Shown here piece by piece: positions 33,071 through 34,301 of a stretch of DNA of 34,301 bases. The translations under genes and the position numbers were made by a program. The notes beneath the pieces are model-generated. The model had not been told where the DNA came from, made no database searches, and was given only the letters and a program-made list of their open reading frames with translations. The stretch spans positions 1-34,301 of the forward strand of contig MFIM01000012.1 in the NCBI GenBank assembly GCA_001780725.1, read 5' to 3'. This DNA is from Candidatus Giovannonibacteria bacterium RIFCSPLOWO2_02_FULL_45_28 (lineage in GTDB: Bacteria; Patescibacteriota; Minisyncoccia; UBA11713; 2-01-FULL-45-33). The stretch's first letter is position 1. The number at the start of each line of letters is the position of its first letter.

Positions 33071-33281
33071 ACCCCCAGGATAAGATGAGCCGACATCGCT
33101 GTCGTATTTGTCTTCTATTACTAGAAGGATCGGACTATATCTTCACCCTGCTCCGCCGGCTGGCGGATGCTGGGGTTGGCGTCTTAGCCGCGCATTATGT
33201 CTGCGCCGCTCTCTCCGATGTACATCGGAGAAGTCTCTACGGGGTCAATCCACTCAAAATTTTGGAATCAAGCCTTGATAC

Positions 33282-33309
33282 TTGACAAATTAATTGTATA
33301 TGCTAAACT
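33282..33309 (+). promoter_or_regulatory. Promoter for the intron-borne antisense ORF
   Basis: TTGACA-N16-TAAACT. Confidence 0.5.
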
Positions 33310-33328
33310 CCCTTAAGGAGGGTGAGAA

Positions 33329-33583
33329 ATGAAAAAAATTATTTTTGTGTTAACTTCGGTTTGTCTCAACACACATTGGTCTAAACCTAATTATTCGCTT
33401 GATCCAGTCGGTCCATTTTTTCATGAAAAGGCCGCAAAAAAATGGGTTAAGAAATTCAAGGCGTTCTGTCGTAGTCACAATGAAATTGAGTATGTCTATT
33501 GTAAAATAACTGAGTTGAATACGAGAGCCAAACGAGCTCCAAAATCATTCCTCACTAATTTTCTTAGCGAATATGGCTCTTAA
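33329..33583 (+). CDS. Hypothetical protein encoded antisense inside 23S intron 2
   Basis: 84 aa ORF MKKIIFVLTSVCLNTHWSKPNYSLDPVGPFFHEKAAKKWVKKF...; AAGGAGGGTGAGAA-ATG RBS; terminator after stop. Confidence 0.65.
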   Translation: MKKIIFVLTSVCLNTHWSKPNYSLDPVGPFFHEKAAKKWVKKFKAFCRSHNEIEYVYCKITELNTRAKRAPKSFLTNFLSEYGS

Positions 33584-33603
33584 CACATTTCTGTTCTATC
33601 TAT

Positions 33604-33632
33604 CATGACCGTTAGCATGCGGTCATTTTTTT
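33604..33632 (+). terminator. Terminator of the intron-borne ORF
   Basis: ATGACCG-TTAGCATG-CGGTCAT followed by T7; no T run on the minus side. Confidence 0.75.
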
Positions 33633-34301
33633 ATTCTATTTTTCCAAAATTTTGAGTAGACGACTTCCCACGGTATTGTCCAAATAAATTTCCTATCATT
33701 TATTTTTTGGAGTCCACCGTTATAAGCCAAATTTTTATTCGGGCAAATTTAATTGCCCCAGGAATGAAATTACTTTCATTGCGCCCCGATTTGAGGTGCC
33801 GAACTCCGTCGTCGATATGGACTCTTGGACGGAACTAGCCTGTTATCCCCGGAGTAGCTTTTATCCGTTAATCTTCCGTGGCATCGAGTGCCAACGGTCG
33901 GTTCACTATGTTCTGCTTTCGCATCTGGTCGTCATGTCCGACTTCCAGTCAAGCCAGCTTATGCCATTGCACGACTAGCGCGGTGTCCATCCGCGCCTAG
34001 CTGACCTTAATAAACGCCTCCGTTACTTTTTAGGAGGCTTGCGCCCCACACAAACTGCCCAGCAGCTACTGTCCCCATCCGGTTTTGCCGGACAGGTTAG
34101 ATTTTACATTTTTAAAAATGGGTATTTCATTGGCGGCTCCACGCCTCCCGAGAGAAACGCTTCAAAGCCTCCCCACTACGCTACGTATTAAAAACATAAA
34201 GCCAATAACAACTTACAGTAAAGCTTCCGGGGTCTTTTCGTCTAACTGCACTTAACCGGCATCTTCACCGGTATCGCATTTTCACCGAGTAAATCCCCGA
34301 G

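Follow-up and report, generated by a model that had tools for sequence, protein, structure and literature searches.

The window, i.e., the whole stretch of DNA analyzed here (contig G000:C12, 34,301 bases), ends within a 23S rRNA gene on the minus strand. When its exons are mapped to the E. coli 23S, this gene is seen to contain two introns, one after U2500 and one near position 2533. The U2500 intron is 695 nt long, or ~290 nt without the cassette module described below. Its copy in the window matches Rfam RF00028 with 36.8 bits (E=3e-7, insert included), a score below the 50-bit cut-off of that family; three shorter, cassette-less relatives at the same L2500 site score 59-66 bits as group I introns, above the cut-off. 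Conserved group I elements, i.e., the P7 pairing GAGACT/AGTC and the S element AAGATATAGTCC, are present, and 30 of the 56 pairs of the core fold show compensatory change in a 12-intron alignment with the inserts removed. The uninterrupted site, GGCACCT followed by CGATGTCGG, is found in family members G003, G004, and G006, and this empty site fixes the exact ends of the intron. The boundaries read GGCACCT/C...ACAG/CGATG (slashes mark the splice sites), the 5' exon ending with U and the intron with G, matching the group I requirement. Judged from these features the host is a group I intron, predicted to splice. The second intron lies ~33 nt beyond the first, at about 33066-32432 on the same strand, and holds a decayed LAGLIDADG gene, in which the motif AYLAGLIDGDG and the C-terminal part are in different frames and the middle is missing.

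On the strand opposite to the rRNA, the U2500 intron carries a small gene with signals of its own (Table 1). The sequence-only reading had described an antisense unit within a 23S intron, with promoter-like TTGACA/TAAACT, Shine-Dalgarno AAGGAGG, and an 84-codon ORF, and every one of these parts was found at the coordinates it gave. The -35 box occupies 33282-33287 and the -10 box 33304-33309, with a spacer of 16. The terminator hairpin ATGACCG-TTAGCATG-CGGTCAT (33605-33626) has seven perfect pairs in the stem (the terminator scan counted eight) and is followed by TTTTTTT in the direction of the cassette; a scan of the intron on the rRNA strand showed no terminator-like site. The proposed span of 33282-33632 covers the promoter to the terminator but misses two conserved arms on either side, and the full module, both arms included, is 33254-33655. 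As RNA, the two arms pair over ~19 bp and form an extension of P6 that closes the cassette loop.

Table 1. Features of the U2500 intron and of the antisense cassette within it.
Feature	Position	Strand	Basis or remark
Group I intron after 23S U2500 (E. coli numbering)	33099..33793	-	Rfam match, exon mapping, empty sites, covarying fold
S element AAGATATAGTCC, P7 3' strand	33132..33143	-	
3' strand of P6 and R/P7 5' element, GACCCCGTAGAGACT	33232..33246	-	
Right arm of module, TCAAAATTTTGGAATCAA, adjoining the promoter	33254..33271	+	Conserved in 10 modules
Promoter-like TTGACA-16-TAAACT, extended -10 (TG)	33282..33309	+	
Shine-Dalgarno AAGGAGG, 7 nt before ATG	33315..33321	+	
ATG ORF, 84 aa	33329..33583	+	
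Predicted intrinsic terminator	33605..33633	+	Oriented in the direction of the cassette only
Left arm of module, CCAAAATTTTGA	33644..33655	+	
Intron core GGACAATACCGTGGGAAGTC, P5/P4 and 5' strand of P6	33662..33681	-	Sequence and relatives

The complete ordered cassette did not appear in any of 3000 dinucleotide shuffles of the 416-nt insert. Its single parts appeared at different rates, i.e., an ORF of at least 84 aa in 81, a terminator in 22, and a Shine-Dalgarno-led ORF of at least 60 aa in two of the 3000 shuffles. By host codon usage the frame of the ORF ranks top of the six; among real gene pieces its codon score ranks at the 6th percentile, among out-of-frame pieces at the 96th, and the ORF is AT-richer than the host (35% versus 45% GC). 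From the architecture and the codon statistics the ORF is predicted to be coding. The predicted protein is basic (pI 9.7) with no transmembrane segment. Homologues were found neither in Pfam, PHROGs, NCBIfam, PADLOC, and PDB nor in phages, plasmids, IMG/VR, or GTDB genomes. Weak tblastn matches in seven genomes were rejected, as they span stop codons or are short stretches at chance level, and so was a PDB match to trypanosome mS71 (E 4.5e-4), which consists of three weak fragments with a best-domain E of 0.2. AlphaFold2 from the single sequence gave a pLDDT of 56, and Foldseek found no match. Most probably the 84-aa orphan has an accessory role that has nothing to do with splicing or homing.

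L2500 introns were surveyed by pattern in 84,980 species genomes, with relatives added, and the segment between GGGAAGTC and GACCCCGTAGAGACT was measured as the P6 loop. The scan found 111 introns with both exons in view, of which 106 could be parsed. The P6 loop is at least 440 nt long in 46 of the 106, all 46 with LAGLIDADG motifs on the sense strand; in another 45 it is shorter than 110 nt, and in the remaining 15 its length lies between these limits. The window cassette is one of these 15 intermediate P6 inserts and therefore occupies the exact position of the homing endonuclease gene (HEG). In HEG-bearing relatives the conserved core overlaps the first LAGLIDADG codons (MDNTVGS), and the bases equivalent to 33662..33681 encode DNTVGS, the first HEG codons.

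This position raises the question whether the cassette is an antisense gene for a homing endonuclease or maturase, either decayed or unusual, since it occupies the site that the HEG has in this lineage and antisense homing genes are known in nuclear rDNA introns, e.g., the homing endonuclease gene of the Didymium S956-2 intron (PMC3679873). However, no LAGLIDADG, GIY-YIG, or HNH motif or profile match was found in the 84-aa protein, which bears out the earlier statement that it is not a recognizable homing endonuclease, and in this lineage the LAGLIDADG gene in P6 is read in the same sense as the rRNA; we consider a HEG origin very improbable. The Didymium gene resembles the window cassette in lying opposite to the rRNA strand inside an rRNA group I intron, and differs in that it encodes a eukaryotic homing endonuclease, whereas the window gene shows no nuclease match. 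To our knowledge the Didymium gene has no arms, no cargo exchange, and no bacterial promoter or terminator.

Other material was seen in the P6 loops of 23S introns. At least eight L2500 introns (L005, L036, L068, L094, L104, L106, L124, and L138) carry a conserved structured RNA element of the type GTAAGAAAGCGATCACTC...GAGAGCTG...GTAATTAC in the place of the HEG. Small sense-strand ORFs of ~54-86 aa, several of them highly charged, are present in the P6 loops of L157, L154, L025, and L119; they have no terminator of their own, and G004 and G003, close relatives of the window's genome, are among the genomes with them. The P6 insert at L109:6287-6498 ends in a tRNA-like stretch, GGTTCGAGTCCTTGCACCCAACGCCA, in which ARAGORN calls no tRNA.

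The search for the cassette in other rRNA introns, raised by the sequence-only reading, turned up the same architecture in related introns. Ten arm-bounded modules were found in eight CPR genomes, all antisense to the rRNA, at 23S sites of about L1931, L2254, L2500, L2593, and L2657. At L2500, three other introns have an antisense promoter-terminator unit in the P6 loop, i.e., L130 with an ORF of 92 aa, L075 with one of 63 aa, and L142a with none. Further antisense units lie at L2593 (L018, L024, L160, and L054), at about L1931 (L142b and L042), at about L2254 (L172 and L173), and at about L2657 (L174). L160 and L142b are weaker cases, with a poor Shine-Dalgarno or promoter, and the L142b ORF reads through its own terminator. 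In 45 non-HEG inserts, a strict detector applied to either strand found five antisense and zero sense cassettes, with 0.0 expected from shuffles. Apparent cassettes that a looser detector placed inside HEG ORFs were of lower quality and were discarded, and an antisense peptide in L154 was set aside as overlapping a sense ORF.

Two of the units, L042 and L142a, combine a near-consensus promoter and a strong terminator in antisense with no ORF, and we regard them as candidate small RNAs; in some cassettes what matters may be the transcript and not a protein. One could extend this to the whole set, with an antisense RNA as the product, one that would modulate the splicing or maturation of the 23S by pairing with the intron, the more so as any such RNA is necessarily complementary to the P6 loop. 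Against this, most modules have a Shine-Dalgarno-led ORF, one cargo is conserved at the codon level, and the complementarity is confined to the loop and arms, outside the catalytic core, and we consider an RNA product distinctly improbable as a general explanation.

The arms follow the inverted pattern TCAAATTTTTGG[A/G]GTCAA ... CCAAAAATTTGA. The insert ends match TCAAATTTTTGG ... CCAAAAATTTGA in seven of 237 intron inserts, and all seven are antisense cassettes, from three sites; the association gives a Fisher p of about 1.6e-11, to be read as descriptive only, as the 237 inserts include related sequences. Three further cassettes (L130, L054, and L142a) have no clear arms. An arm probe, TCARAWTTTTGGRRTC, matched ten places in 63 CPR genomes, i.e., seven modules in 23S introns, among them the newly found L172, L173, and L174, and three isolated arms, and the reversed arm as a control matched none in the same 63 genomes. 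Eight IMG/VR contigs with an arm match have no promoter or partner arm and were assigned to chance. Across the ten modules, the promoter-side arm near TCAAATTTTTGG[A/G]GTCAA is followed by the -35 box within a few to about 30 bases, and in nearly all of them the T-run of the terminator leads towards or into the other arm. One inverted pair, in L046, encloses a GIY-YIG-like ORF outside P6 and is not a P6 module; this ORF (L046:1775-2080) sits in a 23S insertion near 1705-1737, within an unrelated perfect inverted repeat, CCAGCTCCAATTTTGGG.

The two arms, inverted relative to each other (33254-33271 and 33644-33655 in the window), bring to mind a transposon-like element, such as a mobile insertion cassette or MITE, with the arms as terminal inverted repeats and the transposase supplied in trans, and the varying passenger genes and the several sites per genome would fit such an element. 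The distribution speaks against it: in the arm search complete modules were found only in P6 of 23S introns and elsewhere just the three isolated single arms. The flanks are the complementary strands of P6. By eye, and with no empty-P6 sister intron for comparison, no target duplication in the form of direct repeats was seen at the module edges. We consider a transposon-like element unlikely.

The cargo of the arm-bounded modules ranges from 39 to 84 aa and includes several membrane peptides. Nine of the ten carry eight different ORFs; the tenth, L042, has none. The common cargo belongs to L075 (L2500) and L142b (L1931), from two genomes, with 58% amino acid identity over 57 residues. Changes between the two fall on the three codon positions as 20/11/26, and dN/dS is 0.23 (NG86) or 0.42 (LWL85), values from a single pair with synonymous sites near saturation. 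Codon-level conservation in related introns, one point of the refutation test named in the sequence-only reading, is thus seen for this cargo, not for the window ORF. The two modules align over 365 columns, and the 5' intron cores around them have only ~19 nt in common; the L2500 intron of L142 itself carries a different cassette from its L1931 one. A profile of the L075/L142b cargo run against 384 genomes gave two weak membrane-type matches, in surroundings without 23S. Genomes G212 and G305 each have two modules, in two introns with different cores and with different cargo, and the P6 flanks of each pair are alike (GGGAAGTCTTCCGTTCAAATTTTTGG ... CCAAAAATTTGAACGGAATGACCCC), with one base differing in one G305 arm flank. 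Because different cores surround the same module or the same P6 flanks (L075/L142b; G212 and G305), the P6 domain with its gene appears to move between introns, and because the cargo differs inside the same P6 flanks (G212 and G305), genes appear to be replaced within the frame of the arms.

Several cargoes are peptides of 39-63 aa with one strong hydrophobic segment, and complementary RNA is built into every module by its layout. Both features are compatible with an addiction gene, i.e., a toxin that the abundant intron RNA, being complementary, would repress in the manner of a type I toxin-antitoxin system and that would maintain the intron in the population. The window protein is, however, a soluble basic 84-mer with no hydrophobic segment and no toxin family match, and as an explanation of the module addiction is distinctly unlikely. 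Another view is that of a safe harbor, in which random fragments land in the dispensable P6 loop and harmless antisense genes persist with no dedicated module. The P6 inserts are indeed highly varied (HEG remnants, repeats, small sense ORFs, and other elements), the cargo is orphan and unrelated, and the arms are not clear in three of the cassettes. Yet the arms are conserved at five sites and tied to cassettes, sense cassettes are absent, the spacing from arm to promoter and from terminator to arm is close, and one cargo is under purifying selection; taken together, such debris is unlikely to be the origin of the cassettes.

We favor, with a probability of roughly 0.78, the reading that the window cassette belongs to a wider family of P6 modules, exchangeable among CPR 23S group I introns. 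The anatomy, the recurrence, the antisense bias, the arm conservation, the one constrained cargo, and the differing cores are seen in the sequences, which come from metagenome assemblies; transcription, translation, splicing, and the exchange route are predicted from them. A P6 module is built from a pair of inverted arms, which lengthen the P6 helix, and, in the loop, a predicted monocistronic antisense gene with its own promoter, Shine-Dalgarno, small ORF, and one-way intrinsic terminator. In the rRNA direction the whole module would be a looped-out P6 extension, lost on splicing; in the opposite direction it would be an independent gene, with a promoter of its own to drive transcription and a translated product. 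The antisense orientation would be favored because a terminator in the sense direction would truncate the 23S rRNA. Modules would pass among introns with different cores, the simplest route being recombination in P6 and the conserved flanks (GGGAAGTC ... GACCCC), while over time one cargo would give way to another between the arms. Such recombination would suffice for the exchange, and a dedicated enzyme may also take part.

It would follow from this layout that intron RNA and cassette mRNA are complementary, so that the cassette may be expressed chiefly at times of low rRNA synthesis. Extended further, pre-rRNA or excised intron, in large excess during growth, would silence the cassette mRNA as a built-in antisense RNA, and rRNA polymerases would collide head-on with the cassette promoter, so that the gene would be on only when 23S transcription drops, e.g., on starvation or detachment from the host cell. 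A cargo system gated by ribosome synthesis in this way and swapped among CPR rRNA introns via the arms and P6 flanks is a tentative proposal, and we would not press it.

According to its main text, a survey of CPR rRNA insertions (Tsurumaki et al. 2024, PMC11270868) describes LAGLIDADG ORFs, at sites including 1931, 2593, and 2657, together with many ORF-less introns, 222 of the 23S group I introns being ORF-less by Pfam annotation; antisense genes are not mentioned in that main text. As far as described there, the LAGLIDADG introns are the same host introns with the HEG in the same P6 loop, and the P6 modules differ from them in a non-endonuclease cargo that runs antisense, has its own promoter and terminator, and lies between arms. 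IStrons, composed of a group I intron and an IS605 element (PMC3984707), likewise have a foreign gene module carried by a group I intron. Unlike an IStron, a P6 module has no transposase, resides in an rRNA host, and carries a single small gene as cargo; in the window intron no IS605-type transposase was found, and the only notable ORF is the 84-aa orphan. Integron cassettes mostly lack a promoter and come with a single attC site and an integrase, and mobile insertion cassettes insert at many places. Both share with the P6 modules a conserved frame with exchangeable passenger genes, but the P6 modules are complete genes with their own promoters between two inverted arms, as opposed to integron cassettes, and, as opposed to mobile insertion cassettes, they are always in P6 of a 23S intron. 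These known parallels, the antisense homing genes included, differ from the P6 modules in defining features, and we found no description of swappable antisense gene modules in rRNA introns in the open-licence literature. If all intron-borne ORFs are counted as one kind, the P6 module is a variant within that kind.

Group I introns abound in CPR 23S genes, and part of the intron material regarded as ORF-less appears to be a recurrent module carrying an antisense gene. The modules can be searched for by their signature (arms plus P6) and offer a number of uncharacterized small proteins, and reading them as P6 modules predicts expression of the cassettes opposite to rRNA synthesis. If this is true, the introns of the most essential gene would be an integron-like platform in otherwise minimal genomes.
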